From an uncultured Rhodospirillales bacterium (GTDB lineage: Bacteria > Pseudomonadota > Alphaproteobacteria > Rhodospirillales > Defluviicoccaceae), in the NCBI GenBank assembly GCA_937127205.1, contig CAKZLS010000501.1, positions 1 through 36,774 of the forward strand: 36,774 nucleotides of DNA. Direction: 5' to 3'. The position numbers and the translations under genes are program-made. Under the pieces are notes generated by a model. It was not told where the DNA came from, searched no databases, and worked only from the letters and a program-made list of their open reading frames with translations. Position 1 is the stretch's first letter; every line of letters starts with the position of its first letter. This document shows, one piece after another, positions 20,777 to 35,806 of this stretch.

Positions 20777-20902
20777 GAAGGCACATTTATCTGCAAAACG
20801 GCGGCGTCTCAATACTTTGGCAACAATTGGATCCTATAATCCGTCTTGCAAACAAATTCGCATCTGGTCATATTCTCTCTTCACCGTCAGTTGGCGGTCA
20901 TG

Positions 20903-20977
20903 CGGGCGTAGCTCAGCGGTAGAGCGCAACCTTGCCAAGGTTGAAGTCGTGGGTTCGATCCCCATCGCCCGCTCCAT
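20903..20977 (+). tRNA. tRNA-Gly (anticodon GCC), 3' CCA encoded
   Basis: GCGGGCG TA GCTCAGCGGTAGAGC G CAACC TTGCCAA GGTTG AAGTC GTGGG TTCGATC CCCAT CGCCCGC T CCA. All four stems pair. Confidence 0.97.
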
Positions 20978-28861: not shown

Positions 28862-29247
28862 GTTGAAATTCTCCCCTGAAAACCCTCTGGCAAATGTTAG
28901 AGAGGCGTATAGCAGAGCTGGGCAATTTCGCGCACCTGTTTGATGGGAGACTCAGGGCCTTTACATTCCATATGGCCTAACCCATATCGAGAATGTTGTA
29001 GGATCTGTTGTAAATTTGCATCGGGCGGTAGGGAACCGTTGTCATATGGGGATTAGACTGAAATGTCCCCATTATCCACAGAGCGCTAGGGTATGTTGGC
29101 GACGCCCTTCGGCGTATCCTTCGCCGGCCCTCTAAATACACGCACCGGTCGTATTTTTTTGAGGGTAAGGTTTTTAACGATATTTATACAATATTCAACT
29201 AACTTGAGAGGAAGAGGTCCACAGTATACAAACTCGGAGTGTATGTG

Positions 29248-29454
29248 ATGACCCCCGTTATTGAGATCAGTACCGAGCGCTACGAGCGGGTTTACAGACG
29301 CAAGCCGCGTGGCTTCACGCTCTGGCACTTCCGCATGCCTGACGGATGGACATTCAGCCAAACGGGCACCTATGCCTCGGCGAAGCGCGCGGCGGCGGAG
29401 CACGCTCGGCGGAGAAGCTTCGGTCCAGTGGCCCGTTTGCAAGTATGGTGCTGA
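29248..29454 (+). CDS. Small hypothetical protein
   Basis: MTPVIEISTERYERVYRRKPRGFTLWHFRMPDGWTFSQTGTYASAKRAAAEHARRRSFG. Protein-like composition, with GGAG upstream of the start. No recognised family. Confidence 0.5.
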   Translation: MTPVIEISTERYERVYRRKPRGFTLWHFRMPDGWTFSQTGTYASAKRAAAEHARRRSFGPVARLQVWC

Positions 29455-29481: not shown

Positions 29482-29703
29482 TCAGACCGTCGCGGCCGGA
29501 CCTAGCACCGGTTTCCGCAGCCAATCCCGATGATACCTCAAGAACCCCAGAATTCCTCGAGTAATATAGGCTTGGCGTCGGCGTTTTGCGTCATCCACTT
29601 GCCGCAATACGTCTTGCCAGCCAATCTCCGGGAGCGGAGGCGTTTCGTGCCTCGATCGATTGGTGAAATTGCCGTACGCAAGGTCGTTCTCATGCTTTTT
29701 CAT
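29482..29703 (-). CDS. Small hypothetical protein
   Basis: MKKHENDLAYGNFTNRSRHETPPLPEIGWQDVLRQVDDAKRRRQAYITRGILGFLRYHRDWLRKP. AAGGAA ribosome-binding-like sequence upstream of the ATG. Confidence 0.5.
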   Translation of the reverse strand: MKKHENDLAYGNFTNRSRHETPPLPEIGWQDVLRQVDDAKRRRQAYITRGILGFLRYHRDWLRKPVLGPAATV

Positions 29704-29870
29704 GGTTTACCGTTCCTTGAAAAACGAGGTCCGTCGAGAACTTTTCTGTAGTGTGCTGCTTGGCTACCGCGAGCATCGAATCTCATTCGGTGGTTTTCCA
29801 CTTTCCCAAAACCTCTCTTCCTCACACCGATGAAATGCCAATAACGATAAGGTCTCGTTTTGCCGCGGTC

Positions 29871-29886
29871 TGTGAACCAGTTCACA
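29871..29886. promoter_or_regulatory. Perfect CRP/FNR-family-type operator TGTGAAC-CA-GTTCACA
   Basis: 7+2+7 perfect inverted repeat matching TGTGA-N6-TCACA, about 130 nt upstream of the first gene of the exported-protein cluster. Confidence 0.55.
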
Positions 29887-30019
29887 CTTCGGCAAAAAAA
29901 TTCGTTCCGGGTGCGATGAGGGCTAATCCCAGACGAGGCAGGGTTGACAGGAACTCGGAAACGGTTGATCTGCCTCCGAGAACCGATGACTGATCCAGAT
30001 TGCTCCAGGAGGATACTCG

Positions 30020-30331
30020 ATGCAGTCCGCCCTCGTTAGCCGCACCTTCACACCGTCAACCGCAGTTATGTTGGCCCTCGTGCTGACCCTCGCCGCCTGT
30101 TCGTCCAAGCAACCGAACAAAGTGCTCAATTCCGGCTCGGGCGGGATCACCATCGAATATGACACCCGGTATCCGACCATGGCCGGCGTGGACGCAGACG
30201 AGCATTGCGCCAAATTCGGCAAAGTCGCGAAGCGGGTGGAGACAAAAAGCGCGGATACCATGGAAAGAGTTTCCCATCGGCACGCCGCCGTGGCCGTTTT
30301 CGCGTGCGAGAATCCGGGCGGAGCGGGTTGA
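30020..30331 (+). CDS. Putative small lipoprotein
   Basis: Hydrophobic signal with lipobox LTLAAC|SS. Mature part contains DEHCAKFGKVAKRVE and VAVFACENP. Confidence 0.75.
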   Translation: MQSALVSRTFTPSTAVMLALVLTLAACSSKQPNKVLNSGSGGITIEYDTRYPTMAGVDADEHCAKFGKVAKRVETKSADTMERVSHRHAAVAVFACENPGGAG

Positions 30332-30454
30332 TCGCCGAGAGACCCGTTGGCCGTCGCAGAAAAGGTGAACTTGCCGCTTGATAATTCTAGCGAAACCGCC
30401 AATGCTCGGTCCCGGCGATGACGACATCGTTCGGGACGGATGACGGAGAATGTA

Positions 30455-30967
30455 ATGACAAGAGCTAAGTTGTCTTATGTGGTTTTAGCGATCGTGATCA
30501 CGATCGCCGGTGCGGCACCCGCAGCTGCCGTAGACTGGTCGGCCACCGGCCACAACGACGTCTCCGTCACGTTGTCCGAAGAAGCAGGGAAATGTGGCAT
30601 CCGCAGTAAGGATGAGTTCGCCAAGCAGCTGCGCGGCAGCCTCGGGGAGATTGGGCAGCGCGTCGACCCGAGCCAGCCGCTGGTCGCCCAACTGCACGTT
30701 TCCGCCAAACCTGTCCAGGCGATTCAAGGCCAGTGCGTGGCCGTGGTCAGGCTGGCGTTCGTCATTCCCATGGAAATGGATTTCATCGAGATCACCGAGA
30801 AGGTCACCAATCGTGAAGCGGTAATCTCGGTGTTGGAGAAGGCCCGCCAGTTCCCCATCGTGCTATACGAAAACAGCGAATTCACCGCGGCGTGGCCCAC
30901 CAACATGCACAGCGATGCCCTATATTTGGTGGAGCAGTTGGTCCAACAATACGCCGGGCGACGCTGA
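30455..30967 (+). CDS. Putative secreted protein of unknown function
   Basis: Sec-type signal MTRAKLSYVVLAIVITIAGAAPAAA. Start at 30455 follows GGAG. Two cysteines in the mature region (EAGKCGIR, IQGQCVAV). Confidence 0.72.
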   Translation: MTRAKLSYVVLAIVITIAGAAPAAAVDWSATGHNDVSVTLSEEAGKCGIRSKDEFAKQLRGSLGEIGQRVDPSQPLVAQLHVSAKPVQAIQGQCVAVVRLAFVIPMEMDFIEITEKVTNREAVISVLEKARQFPIVLYENSEFTAAWPTNMHSDALYLVEQLVQQYAGRR

Positions 30968-31016
30968 GAGCGCATCCGCCCGAAACTGGAAACGAGGGAT
31001 AGAGGAAAATTTCGAT

Positions 31017-31469
31017 ATGAAAACCATTGTTCGCGGCATCGGCTTGCTCGCCGTTCTTGTGGTCCTGGCGTCGGCGGGTAGCGTGAGCGCCCAGGACAAA
31101 CCGCAAAAAATCACCGCCACCATCGATTTCCATGAGTTACAGGTGGCCTATATCGGCAGCGGAACCATGGGTCACGGCACGCTCAATTTCCAGGGCCAGT
31201 CCTATCCCATCAAGGTCGCAGGCCTCGGCATTGGCGGCATCGGCCTTTCCGAGATTCAGGCCCACGGCGACGTCTATGACCTCGAAAACATCGAGGACTT
31301 CGCAGGTCTCTATGGTCAGGTGCAAACCGGTTATGCGCTTGGCGATCAGAGCGGGGGTCAAATGTGGCTGGAGAATCCAAACGGCGTCACCATCCATCTC
31401 GACACCAAGCGCGAGGGATTGATGCTGTCCATGGGCGCCAACGGATTGGACATTGAGATGGATGAATGA
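31017..31469 (+). CDS. Putative secreted protein of unknown function
   Basis: Signal MKTIVRGIGLLAVLVVLASAGSVSAQ, then YPIKVAGLGIGGIGLSEIQAHGDVYDLENIEDFAGLYGQVQTGYALGDQSGGQMWLENPNGVTIHL. Confidence 0.75.
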   Translation: MKTIVRGIGLLAVLVVLASAGSVSAQDKPQKITATIDFHELQVAYIGSGTMGHGTLNFQGQSYPIKVAGLGIGGIGLSEIQAHGDVYDLENIEDFAGLYGQVQTGYALGDQSGGQMWLENPNGVTIHLDTKREGLMLSMGANGLDIEMDE

Positions 31470-31548
31470 CCCGCGCACAGCCTACGGCCCTCGCACCGCA
31501 GGCCATAGAAGCGACACCCAATGACATTCGATTGATGACGGAACTCTG

Positions 31549-32238
31549 ATGATAAAGATGACTCGCTACCTATTGGCCCTCGTGTTGATGTTCGCCGCCG
31601 CCGGAACCGCCCATTCCGACGACACGCAGGGATCCCTGGTGGAAGGCGCGCTGGAGGAAATCCAGCAATTTTCCCAGCACACGCAATGGGACGGCGTGGA
31701 AAACGTCCTCGGCGGCGCGAAAGCGGTGATCATCGCTCCAGATGTGAAATCCGGCGCCTTTATCGTCGGCGTCGAAAATGGAACCGGTGTTCTGTTGGCG
31801 CGCCACGGAGAGGTATGGAGTGATCCGGTGTTCGTAAAGCTCTGGGAGGAGAGCGCGGGTCTTCAGGCGGGGATCAAGCAATCGGAAGTCCTGATGCTGA
31901 TCCTGACGCGCAATGCCATCAAGGAGGTCGCCAGCGGTGTTTCGCGGGTTGGCGGAACGGGCGGGTTCGCGCTTGGTCCCCTCGGCGTCAATGCGAGCGG
32001 CGCCGGCGGCATTTCGGGCGGGGTTCAAATCCTGACCGTCGCCACTTCCGAAGGACTGGAAGCGGGAACCGGGCTTGCCAATATGAACATCAGTCCGATC
32101 GAGGACCTGAACACCGCCGCCTACGGCACCACCTTCAATGCCACCGACATCCTCTCGAAACCGGGCGGACAACTGCAAATCGCGATATCGCTTCGGGACG
32201 CGTTGGCGAAAATCACCAAGAGCGCATGGAACAATTAA
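31549..32238 (+). CDS. SYLF (Ysc84/DUF500) lipid-binding domain protein, exported
   Basis: Signal MTRYLLALVLMFAAAGTAHS, then VLGGAKAVIIAPDVKSGAFIVGVENGTGVLLARHGEVWSDPVFVKLWEESAGLQAGIKQSEVLMLILT. Confidence 0.85.
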   Translation: MIKMTRYLLALVLMFAAAGTAHSDDTQGSLVEGALEEIQQFSQHTQWDGVENVLGGAKAVIIAPDVKSGAFIVGVENGTGVLLARHGEVWSDPVFVKLWEESAGLQAGIKQSEVLMLILTRNAIKEVASGVSRVGGTGGFALGPLGVNASGAGGISGGVQILTVATSEGLEAGTGLANMNISPIEDLNTAAYGTTFNATDILSKPGGQLQIAISLRDALAKITKSAWNN

Positions 32239-32240
32239 AT

Positions 32241-32759
32241 ATGACCGAAATGAAATACCGCCAATCCGTGATCCGCGCCCTCGGCATTGCGGCCATTGTT
32301 ACCATGGCAATAGCGGGGGCAGCAGCAGGGGCGACGGCGATCGCCACCGGCGCGCGGGCCGCCGATGACACCGCCTTGGAGAAATTGGCGGCGCAGGACG
32401 AGTGCCCGAAATGCGATCTCAGCAAGGCCGATCTGAGCGGCGGCGGCTACCCCGGGAGCGACTTTTCCGAGGCCAATTTGAGCGGCGCCAACCTCGAGAG
32501 CGTGGTCATGAACGAAGCCACCCTGCAAGGCGCCAACCTGAGCGACGTCAACTTGACCGACGCCATTCTCGAGTCCGCCAACCTGAAAGGCGTCAATTTA
32601 ACCGGTGCCGATCTGACTCGCACCGACCTGAGCGGCGCGGATCTGAGCGGCGCCACCGGCCTAACCCAGGCTCAGCTCGACGAAACCTGTGACGACGGCT
32701 CGGCAGATCCGGACGCCGCGATCCTACCGGATGGCTTAGAATTGAAACGGTGCGAATAG
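32241..32759 (+). CDS. Exported pentapeptide-repeat protein (paralogue A)
   Basis: Signal region ending GARAADD, then CPKCDLSKADL followed by A(D/N)LxxxNL repeats. C-terminal GLTQAQLDETCDDGSADPDAAILPDGLELKRCE. Confidence 0.87.
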   Translation: MTEMKYRQSVIRALGIAAIVTMAIAGAAAGATAIATGARAADDTALEKLAAQDECPKCDLSKADLSGGGYPGSDFSEANLSGANLESVVMNEATLQGANLSDVNLTDAILESANLKGVNLTGADLTRTDLSGADLSGATGLTQAQLDETCDDGSADPDAAILPDGLELKRCE

Positions 32760-32792
32760 TCTTTGGTTTGGATGGAATAAGGGACGACGGAT

Positions 32793-33284
32793 ATGAGCGA
32801 TTTGGTGGTGATGGGCTTCGACGATGACGTCAAGGCCTTCGAGATGCGTGCGGCGCTGGCCAAGATGCAGAAGGAATACCTCATCGAGATGGAAGACGTG
32901 GTGGTGGTGACCAAGGACGACAAAGGCAAGGTCAAGCTCCACCAGGCCGTCAACCTGACCATCGCGGGGGCCGCCGGCGGCAGCTTCTGGGGGCTGCTGA
33001 TCGGCATGCTGTTCCTCAATCCGCTGCTCGGCGTTGTGGCCGGAGCGGCGGCCGGTGCGGTCGGCGGCGCGCTCTCCGACATCGGCGTCGACGACAAGTT
33101 CATGAAGCAGCTGGGCGAAACGTTCCAACCCGGAACCTCGGCTTTGTTCGTGCTCATCCGTAAGGTCACCACCGACAAGGTCCTCGAGGAAATGAAGGCC
33201 ATGGGCCTGCATGCGCACATCCTGCAGACCTCGCTCAGCAAGGACACCGAGGACGAACTGCGCGAGGTGCTCGAACATGCGTAG
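32793..33284 (+). CDS. DUF1269 domain membrane protein
   Basis: MSDLVVMGFDDDVKAFEMRAALAKMQKEYLIEMEDVVVVTKDDKGKVKLHQAVNLTIAGAAGGSFWGLLIGMLFLNPLLGVVAGAAAGAVGGALSDIGVDDKFMKQLG. Confidence 0.9.
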   Translation: MSDLVVMGFDDDVKAFEMRAALAKMQKEYLIEMEDVVVVTKDDKGKVKLHQAVNLTIAGAAGGSFWGLLIGMLFLNPLLGVVAGAAAGAVGGALSDIGVDDKFMKQLGETFQPGTSALFVLIRKVTTDKVLEEMKAMGLHAHILQTSLSKDTEDELREVLEHA

Positions 33285-33546
33285 GCGCGCGCTCGCGGCC
33301 GGCATCGCCCTAACCGTCGGCGCGTTACTGCTCTCGGACGCGCTCGCGGAAGAGAACGTGGCGGAGATCGTCGCCGTGCACGTGCGCGAACAGGGCCATC
33401 CCTGCGACAAGGCGGAAAGCGCGAAACGCGACACTAAGGCCGGCGCGCCCGAGGCCGAAGCGGTTTGGATCCTGACGTGCAGCAACGCCGTCTATCGTGT
33501 TCGATTGGTCCCCGACATGAGCGCGAAAATCGAGAAGATAGAGTAG
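33277..33546 (+). CDS. Small putative secreted protein
   Basis: ATG overlaps the DUF1269 stop. Signal MRRRALAAGIALTVGALLLSDALA. Mature region has two Cys (GHPCDKAE, WILTCSNAVYRVRLVPDM). Confidence 0.7.
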   Translation: MRRRALAAGIALTVGALLLSDALAEENVAEIVAVHVREQGHPCDKAESAKRDTKAGAPEAEAVWILTCSNAVYRVRLVPDMSAKIEKIE

Positions 33547-33573
33547 AACTCGGCCGCTCTTAGCCCTTAACGG

Positions 33574-34266
33574 TCACGGTTGGCAGGATCCGCCCTGCTC
33601 TCCCGTGGCCGGCGTGCAGTTCAGCACGAAATCACGCTCCGCGTCGGTTCCGAGCGCGGCCATTGCAATCCCGGTCATTGCGCGAAGCAAGGCGGCCGGT
33701 TCATCCACCGCGCCCGATGCCGTGACCGTCGCCCGCCACACCGGGGTTTCCCCGTGCTCGAAAAGGAGGAACGAGATCGAAGACTCCGTCGGGTTCTCGG
33801 AACCGCCATCCGGTGTCAGGGGGACCGTGACCTGATTGACCACATCCAACGGGCGGTAAGGCTCACCAGGCGGGTGAGGCGCGGGAGCCCCGTCCTCGGG
33901 ATCGCGTGCGGGTGGAGACGGGGGCTGAGGTGCCGGTGACAGTGCGGAGCCACGGGCCGACGACACCTCGTACCGAAGGACTGGCGATCCGTCCTTCGCG
34001 ACGGTGATCCCGCGGTCCTTCAAGGCTTCGCCGACCGCCTCGCGGACGGCTGCCACCCGGGGCCCATCGACGCCGTCGAAATCCGTGTCACGGGTTTGCA
34101 CCACCATGACCGGCGATTGCCGCCATGGTTCGCCGGAGGATACGGCGGAAAGGTGACCGGAAACCGATCGGACGCCGCCAGCGTCGGACAGCGCACGCGG
34201 ACCCGCGGTGACGACCATCAGCATCGCGAGCGCCACCGACACGTAAATAATCCGCGGTTTCGCCAT
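33574..34266 (-). CDS. Putative exported protein, possibly DUF4136-like
   Basis: Signal MAKPRIIYVSVALAMLMVVTAGPRALS, Pro-rich linker (PAPQPPSPPARDPEDGAPAPHPPGEP), AVREAVGEALKDRGITVAKDGSPVLRYEV, C-terminal NCTPATGEQGGSCQP. Confidence 0.65.
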   Translation of the reverse strand: MAKPRIIYVSVALAMLMVVTAGPRALSDAGGVRSVSGHLSAVSSGEPWRQSPVMVVQTRDTDFDGVDGPRVAAVREAVGEALKDRGITVAKDGSPVLRYEVSSARGSALSPAPQPPSPPARDPEDGAPAPHPPGEPYRPLDVVNQVTVPLTPDGGSENPTESSISFLLFEHGETPVWRATVTASGAVDEPAALLRAMTGIAMAALGTDAERDFVLNCTPATGEQGGSCQP

Positions 34267-34558
34267 CGTCTTTGTCCTTCCATGTCCATCGCCGGTCCGC
34301 AAGATCGCCGGCAAAGGCATACATCCATCGACCGATGCAGACAATCGCGCTCGTTGCTCGTCATCTCAAGACAACCTGGTGGGCGGCGTCATGAGGATCA
34401 ATGGGCGTTCTCCGCCGGCTCGGGCGAGGGCTCCAAACATGACAATTTGCAGATGGCGCAATATTGAAACGATGCTATTAGGAGATTCGCGCGGCGTTCC
34501 GAACGCTCGAACCACCAGGGACGACGATCGGCCGCAGGTTGAACACGGAGTGACGGAC

Positions 34559-35050
34559 ATGATCGATCGGGCGGCAAGGGGCATGCGGCGCGCGGCGTTT
34601 GCTCTGTCGGTTGCCGGGCTGTTAGCGGCGGCAACCGACAGTGCCAACGCCTTCGATCCCAAGTCCATCGGTCAGTTGATGGACGACAATCACTGCGAGG
34701 GCTGCGATCTGAGCGGTGCCGATCTGGCCAGAGCCGAGCTCTCCGGCGCCGGCCTCACCGGTGCCAATCTCGAAGGCGCCAACCTGACCAAGACGATCCT
34801 CCTCGGCGCCACCCTCGACGACGCCAACCTCAAGGACGCCGATCTCGCCGGGGCCTATCTCAGCGACGCCAAGTTCGGCGGGGCGGACCTCACCGGTGCC
34901 AATCTCCGGGGGGCCAAGCTGGACGGCGCCGATCTCGCCACCGCCGCCGGGCTCACCCAGGCGCAACTGAACCACGCCTGCGCCGGCCGCGCCGGAGCGC
35001 CGTTCAAGACCCGCCTGCCCGAAGGTCTGACCGTGCGGGCCTGCAAGTAG
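34559..35050 (+). CDS. Exported pentapeptide-repeat protein (paralogue B)
   Basis: Signal MRRAAFALSVAGLLAAATDSANA, HCEGCDLSGADL then pentapeptide repeats, C-terminal GLTQAQLNHACAGRAGAPFKTRLPEGLTVRACK. Confidence 0.87.
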   Translation: MIDRAARGMRRAAFALSVAGLLAAATDSANAFDPKSIGQLMDDNHCEGCDLSGADLARAELSGAGLTGANLEGANLTKTILLGATLDDANLKDADLAGAYLSDAKFGGADLTGANLRGAKLDGADLATAAGLTQAQLNHACAGRAGAPFKTRLPEGLTVRACK

Positions 35051-35100
35051 CAACCGCGTACTCGAACAACGAACGCGTTATCAGACGAAGGAAACATGCC

Positions 35101-35595
35101 ATGATCCATCTGAAATCCGGAACGAAACCGTTGTCGTTGCCAACATCATGGGCGCGCCAATCTTGGGCTGCTGTCGCCGGCATCTGCCTTGTGGCCGCGG
35201 CGGCCACCGCGGGCTGCCAGGCCATCGAGGACGAGCGGACGGTCAACACCGAGAGCCTGTTGCAGGAGGCCGGTTTCCAGGCCCGGTTCGCCGATACGCC
35301 CGAAAACCTGGGGCACGTGACCGCCCTGGAGCAGCGCACCTTCGTCAAGAAGGAGCATGCTGGCAAGCAATTCCACGTCTACGCCGATGCCAAGGGCTGC
35401 AAGTGCATCTACTACGGCACCCCGGCCGAGTATCAGCGCTACCGCGTCCTCGAGAACGACCAGCAAATCGCCGTCAACAACCGGATGAACGCGGTCATGA
35501 ACAACGCCGCCGCCGAACGCTATTACAGCCTTTGGTCCGGCGAGAACGCCATGCCTAACACACCGCCGCCTCCGGGCACCCTTCCGCCGCTCTAA
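35101..35595 (+). CDS. Putative lipoprotein of unknown function
   Basis: Signal with lipobox-like TAGC|QA. Mature region has GCKCIYYGTPAEYQRYRVLENDQQIAVNNRMN and a Pro-rich C-terminus. Confidence 0.72.
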   Translation: MIHLKSGTKPLSLPTSWARQSWAAVAGICLVAAAATAGCQAIEDERTVNTESLLQEAGFQARFADTPENLGHVTALEQRTFVKKEHAGKQFHVYADAKGCKCIYYGTPAEYQRYRVLENDQQIAVNNRMNAVMNNAAAERYYSLWSGENAMPNTPPPPGTLPPL

Positions 35596-35649
35596 CGGCC
35601 ACCGCGTCTCCGAAACCGGGGCAACGGAGCAAAGCCAAACCAAACCACC

Positions 35650-35765
35650 TAGAGCAATATCTGTTCAAGTTGGGTCACTTGATCGGATTTACTTGCTCTA
35701 AACAGTGATAGTTTAGAGCACGACCATGCGGGCAGATCGGGTCGATCTGAGCGCATCGTGCTCTA
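35650..35765. repeat. Composite palindromic intergenic repeat (nested TAGAGCA-type inverted repeats)
   Basis: TAGAGCAA(35650-35657)/TTGCTCTA(35693-35700); CTCTAAAC(35696-35703)/GTTTAGAG(35711-35718); TAGAGCACGA(35714-35723)/TCGTGCTCTA(35756-35765). Confidence 0.8.
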
Positions 35766-35806
35766 GCCGGTCCGCCGGTCACACCGAACTCAGAGGAACT
35801 CCGGCC

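Follow-up and report, generated by a model that had tools for sequence, protein, structure and literature searches.

Does a dense run of small exported proteins with few recognisable domains make up one envelope system? The question is raised by positions 30020-35595 of the window, the whole 36.8-kb stretch of DNA analysed here, where ten mostly small and secreted open reading frames, nine on the plus strand and one on the minus strand, are flanked by purH and a short-chain dehydrogenase gene. A sequence-only reading had proposed a co-exported envelope module at this site, perhaps for stress or lipid-surface maintenance, with a single upstream CRP-type site.

The cluster starts on the plus strand with g1 (30020-30331), encoding a small lipoprotein of 103 amino acids (lipobox LAAC) without family assignment, and continues with the exported orphan g2 (30455-30967, 170 amino acids), the exported g3 protein with a predicted EipA/SYLF fold (31017-31469, 150 amino acids), the exported SYLF (Ysc84) protein g4 (31549-32238, 229 amino acids), the exported pentapeptide-repeat protein g5 (32241-32759, 172 amino acids), the DUF1269 protein g6 (32793-33284, 163 amino acids), in which an N-terminal signal is absent, and the exported g7 protein (33277-33546, 89 amino acids). 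The minus-strand gene g8 (33574-34266), coding for an exported orphan of 230 amino acids, converges with g7 at 27 nt from its end and lies 292 nt from g9 (34559-35050, plus strand), which encodes an exported pentapeptide-repeat protein of 163 amino acids and is followed by g10 (35101-35595, plus strand), encoding a lipoprotein of 164 amino acids (lipobox TAGC). Gaps on the plus strand measure 123 nt between g1 and g2 (ATG at 30455), 49 nt between g2 and g3, 79 nt between g3 and g4, 33 nt between g5 and g6, and 50 nt between g9 and g10; only 2 nt separate the end of g4 (32238) from the ATG of g5 (32241), and the reading frames of g6 and g7 share 8 nt. Gene number, strand distribution and the claimed short spacing were thus borne out, as was the statement that only SYLF, DUF1269 and pentapeptide domains can be recognised: these scored above the Pfam cut-offs in g4 (SYLF/Ysc84), g6 (DUF1269) and g5 and g9 (pentapeptides), and Pfam and NCBIfam searches returned no domain for g1, g2, g3, g7, g8, and g10. 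The nine Sec or lipoprotein signals proposed earlier were also recovered by a home-made heuristic (used in place of SignalP), which was positive for all cluster products except g6 compared with about 4 of the 23 other open reading frames in the window; by this measure, the enrichment in export signals exceeds chance.

The most useful result of the analysis concerns g3, which we propose to represent an unrecognised EipA-like family. Its AlphaFold (AF2) model, built from two sequences (g3 of the window and one relative), comprises ten strands with a pLDDT of 72 and a pTM of 0.66, residues 1 to 28 falling below 50. In a Foldseek search, the best PDB match of this model was Brucella EipA (5uc0; E 7.6e-5, probability 1.00, TM 0.56-0.59), followed by the SYLF protein BefA (7rfq; E 0.087, probability 0.95). 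A profile of the g3 family likewise ranked 5uc0 first in the PDB, at a non-significant E of 0.13, and two g3 relatives matched the Pfam EipA family (PF06577) with 22.8 and 18.9 bits (E 9e-5 and 0.0014), below the curated cut-off of 30.8 bits. Profile-profile comparison of g3 with SYLF gave a weak match (probability 12%). Most likely, g3 adopts the EipA/SYLF fold, as judged from the model, although the Pfam cut-off places it outside EipA.

EipA (DUF1134) is a periplasmic protein of ten antiparallel strands (PMC10787603). Its loss renders Brucella abortus sensitive to EDTA, SDS, and ampicillin and is synthetically lethal with loss of the O-polysaccharide (PMC10787603), and its structural resemblance to the SYLF protein BPSL1445 suggests interaction with lipids (PMC10787603). 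Like EipA (PDB 5UC0), g3 is exported, about 150 amino acids long, and predicted to form a small ten-stranded beta-barrel; unlike EipA, it has no Pfam match of its own and its relatives remain below the curated cut-off. In Rhizobiales, EipA is encoded near ctrA/chpT and subject to CtrA control, whereas g3 sits in the interval between purH and the short-chain dehydrogenase gene; CtrA control was rejected here, no CtrA-type motif being found at the cluster. The g3 family also occurs in Bosea, Azospirillum, Polymorphobacter, Mesorhizobium, and Methyloprofundus, its members in the first four being annotated merely as "hypothetical protein". In the nearest genome, the g3 relative adjoins an OmpA-like gene and another exported protein without assignment rather than SYLF or DUF1269 genes.

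Directly downstream, g4 is by its sequence a genuine SYLF protein: it matched Pfam SYLF/Ysc84 (PF04366) with 56.2 bits (E 3.7e-15, cut-off 25.1 bits) and hit 7ofn in the PDB (E 8e-4). A SYLF profile search gave g4 57.6 bits but the copy on contig 40 of the same genome 98 bits, which marks g4 as a divergent paralog. Compared with the SYLF/Ysc84 proteins of known structure (BPSL1445, 7OFN; BefA, 7RFQ), g4 is a clear family member that differs by the absence of a lipobox, and g3 is predicted to share the broader fold. The adjacent genes g3 and g4 thus probably encode two exported proteins of a lipid-binding fold, ahead of a DUF1269 protein with a predicted glycine zipper.

This DUF1269 protein, g6, is a full-length member of its family (PF06897; 131.8 bits, E 1.3e-38, cut-off 26.9 bits) with a central glycine-rich hydrophobic segment. 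Its AF2 model shows two alpha/beta halves flanking this segment, which is of low confidence, and yielded no confident structural match in the PDB; a PDB sequence search with g6, g10, and g2 also found nothing. A scan of the genome collection returned 45 DUF1269 loci, the best of them 70-73% identical and belonging to Desulfofustis (73%) and other Desulfobacterota; by name, the nearest relatives were found in Desulfobacterota and Gammaproteobacteria. Adding loci from plasmids, relatives, and the phylum brought the comparison to 75 DUF1269 loci. A SYLF gene lies directly upstream on the same strand in two of them (L042 and L045, both Deltaproteobacteria), a divergent g3-like (EipA-like) gene lies beside DUF1269 in one (L052, Methyloprofundus), and the remaining 72 have neither neighbour. 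Two SYLF genes within 2 kb of DUF1269 correspond to a Poisson P of about 0.003 at the SYLF density of the relatives and 0.03 at one SYLF gene per Mb, so that the excess of SYLF or EipA-like neighbours is slightly above chance and suggestive only. In contrast to g6 with its nearby SYLF gene, DUF1269 genes elsewhere usually stand alone or beside stress genes, such as those for RND efflux, for ClpB with Hsp20 and a PRC-barrel protein, or for arginine deiminase with AI-2E. One of the 75 loci combines a remote DUF1269 gene with a pentapeptide gene. In two loci (L033 and L167), DUF1269 has a fasciclin gene as its immediate neighbour, and this pairing may be a recurrent one.

Among the other cluster members, g5 and g9 each contain several pentapeptide repeats (PF00805; E 1e-23 and 1.4e-37, respectively) and share the same architecture, including the C-terminal motif LTQAQL...C...LP.GL...C. 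Export and this paired-cysteine C-terminal cap set them apart from pentapeptide repeat proteins in general. A Qnr/MfpA-type role in quinolone resistance was ruled out, NCBIfam scores being far below the cut-offs. Homologs of g1, g2, and g8 were not found in the plasmids searched, and g2 was absent from 119 other relatives, its own genome being the sole match in 120. Likewise, g7 was absent from 189 other genomes of the class; one relative (41%) was detected on a Bradyrhizobium plasmid. The g10 family has two further copies in the same genome (L030 2139-3142 and L031 2733-3155), one flanked by ppk and a fasciclin gene and the other near genes that we named by eye as YceI-like and cytochrome b561-like.

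The CRP-type site put forward in the sequence-only reading stands in part. The sequence TGTGAACCAGTTCACA at 29871-29886, located 133 nt before the g1 ATG and thus outside 30020-35595, has perfect half-sites and is the sole zero-mismatch TGTGA-N6-TCACA in the window. It lies inside a 40-nt nested palindrome (29858-29897), whose outer arms, TTTTGCCG and CGGCAAAA, match exactly (expected 0.00 in shuffles); because of this embedding, assignment of the putative site to CRP/FNR is plausible but not secure. The palindrome is unremarkable as a hairpin (z only -1.6), and a terminator was ruled out by the absence of a U-run after the stem on both strands. It is also located 5' of a possible 73-amino-acid open reading frame on the minus strand (29482-29703), which diverges from g1 across the palindrome. 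This frame and another on the plus strand (29239-29454) are two small open reading frames without Pfam match in the long intergenic region between purH and g1.

A regulator bound at this site could serve g1-g7 at most, and neither g8 nor g9-g10 directly. As the minus-strand gene g8 lies between g1-g7 and g9-g10, the gene order calls for at least three transcription units: g1-g7 (plus), g8 (minus), and g9-g10 (plus). The tightly spaced core g3-g4-g5-g6-g7 is probably one operon. A consensus scan found neither a sigma-70 promoter nor a plus-strand terminator, and an EcfG general-stress promoter was rejected, GGAAC-N15-18-GTT being absent near the cluster. Past g10, in the stretch leading to the short-chain dehydrogenase gene, positions 35640-35775 form a strong double hairpin (z -4.8), which is probably a dispersed palindromic repeat, since 55 nt of it recur as an 84% copy in G010, a genome of the same family (L111 6776-6830). 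Elsewhere in the window, a tRNA gene is located at 20902-20973 (Rfam RF00005).

The cluster families are unequally spread among 120 relatives: profile searches detected SYLF in 97, DUF1269 in 7, the g3 family in 4 (its own genome included), and the g10 family in 4, and g2 occurs in 1. The class is taken to be Alphaproteobacteria, since genomes belonging to it carry loci that resemble plasmid loci of Sinorhizobium and Tardiphaga. Single-sequence searches of 190 genomes of the class detected SYLF in 85, DUF1269 in 4, and g7 and g10 in their own genome only. In the single-contig genome G010, DUF1269 is encoded at 1.77 Mb, a g10-like protein at 3.28 Mb, and four SYLF proteins at 1.08, 2.32, 3.92, and 4.19 Mb, so that the three families are hundreds of kilobases to megabases from one another, and regions around the matches of each family in same-family genomes contained no second cluster family. 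The families thus do not keep together in relatives, an outcome that the sequence-only reading had itself named as its refutation. This dispersal, together with the 72 DUF1269 loci devoid of SYLF or EipA-like neighbours, rules out a conserved ten-gene module. The earlier description of a dense exported cluster holds, but the single co-regulated system is not supported, given the dispersed families and the opposite strand of g8; the 3 of 75 DUF1269 loci with a SYLF or EipA-like neighbour lend linkage some faint remaining support.

We consider it an even call that these genes for exported and membrane proteins form a neighbourhood particular to this lineage, not a conserved machine, with a role in envelope maintenance. 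Gene order, signals, family memberships, the fold prediction for g3, and the lack of conservation are direct results. Somewhat less probable, though a serious contender, is that an insertion-tolerant interval between purH and the short-chain dehydrogenase gene gathered functionally unlinked small exported genes by chance. The patchy distribution of the families fits such accretion, and the Desulfobacterota and Gammaproteobacteria affinities of g6 suggest transfer, but nine exported products out of ten are unlikely by chance, the g6/g7 overlap and the g4/g5 junction are operon-like, g3 and g4 are neighbours of one fold class, and SYLF or EipA-like genes are slightly overrepresented beside DUF1269. 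That all ten genes form a co-evolved envelope system under one regulator is improbable: tight spacing, common export, the perfect CRP-like half-sites, and recurrence of DUF1269-SYLF and DUF1269-EipA-like adjacency across unrelated phyla speak for it, but it is largely refuted by the dispersal of the families in same-family genomes, and the lack of g2 and g7 homologs in the sampled relatives and class and of g8 homologs in plasmids, the orientation of g8, and the g10 paralogs located elsewhere, one next to ppk, also stand against it.

Within a lineage-specific neighbourhood, the likeliest role of the g3/g4/g6 set would be envelope maintenance under stress. The operon, lipid binding, this envelope-stress role, and any joint action are inferred, the proposed mechanism from fold and neighbours. 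Most likely, g3 and g4 would reside in the periplasm, contact lipid or LPS, and stabilise the outer envelope under stress. The small lipoproteins and the pentapeptide-solenoid proteins g5 and g9 would act alongside them, and g6 would probably sit at the inner membrane via a glycine-zipper hairpin as a stress-linked partner. The envelope and lipid theme of the sequence-only reading is supported, and strengthened because g3, too, is predicted to have an EipA/SYLF-type fold. That DUF1269 inner-membrane proteins and periplasmic proteins of this fold constitute an envelope-spanning pair for lipid sensing or transport is a long shot; both fold members are present here, and the adjacency recurs in Desulfobacterota and Methyloprofundus.

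Given its lack of conservation, the full ten-gene cluster would be of little consequence. Both EipA and the SYLF proteins of bacteria have been linked to the integrity of the envelope, and the g3 family would widen this superfamily beyond the ctrA-linked gene. The rare adjacency of g3-family genes to DUF1269 may point to a candidate partner for EipA-like proteins.
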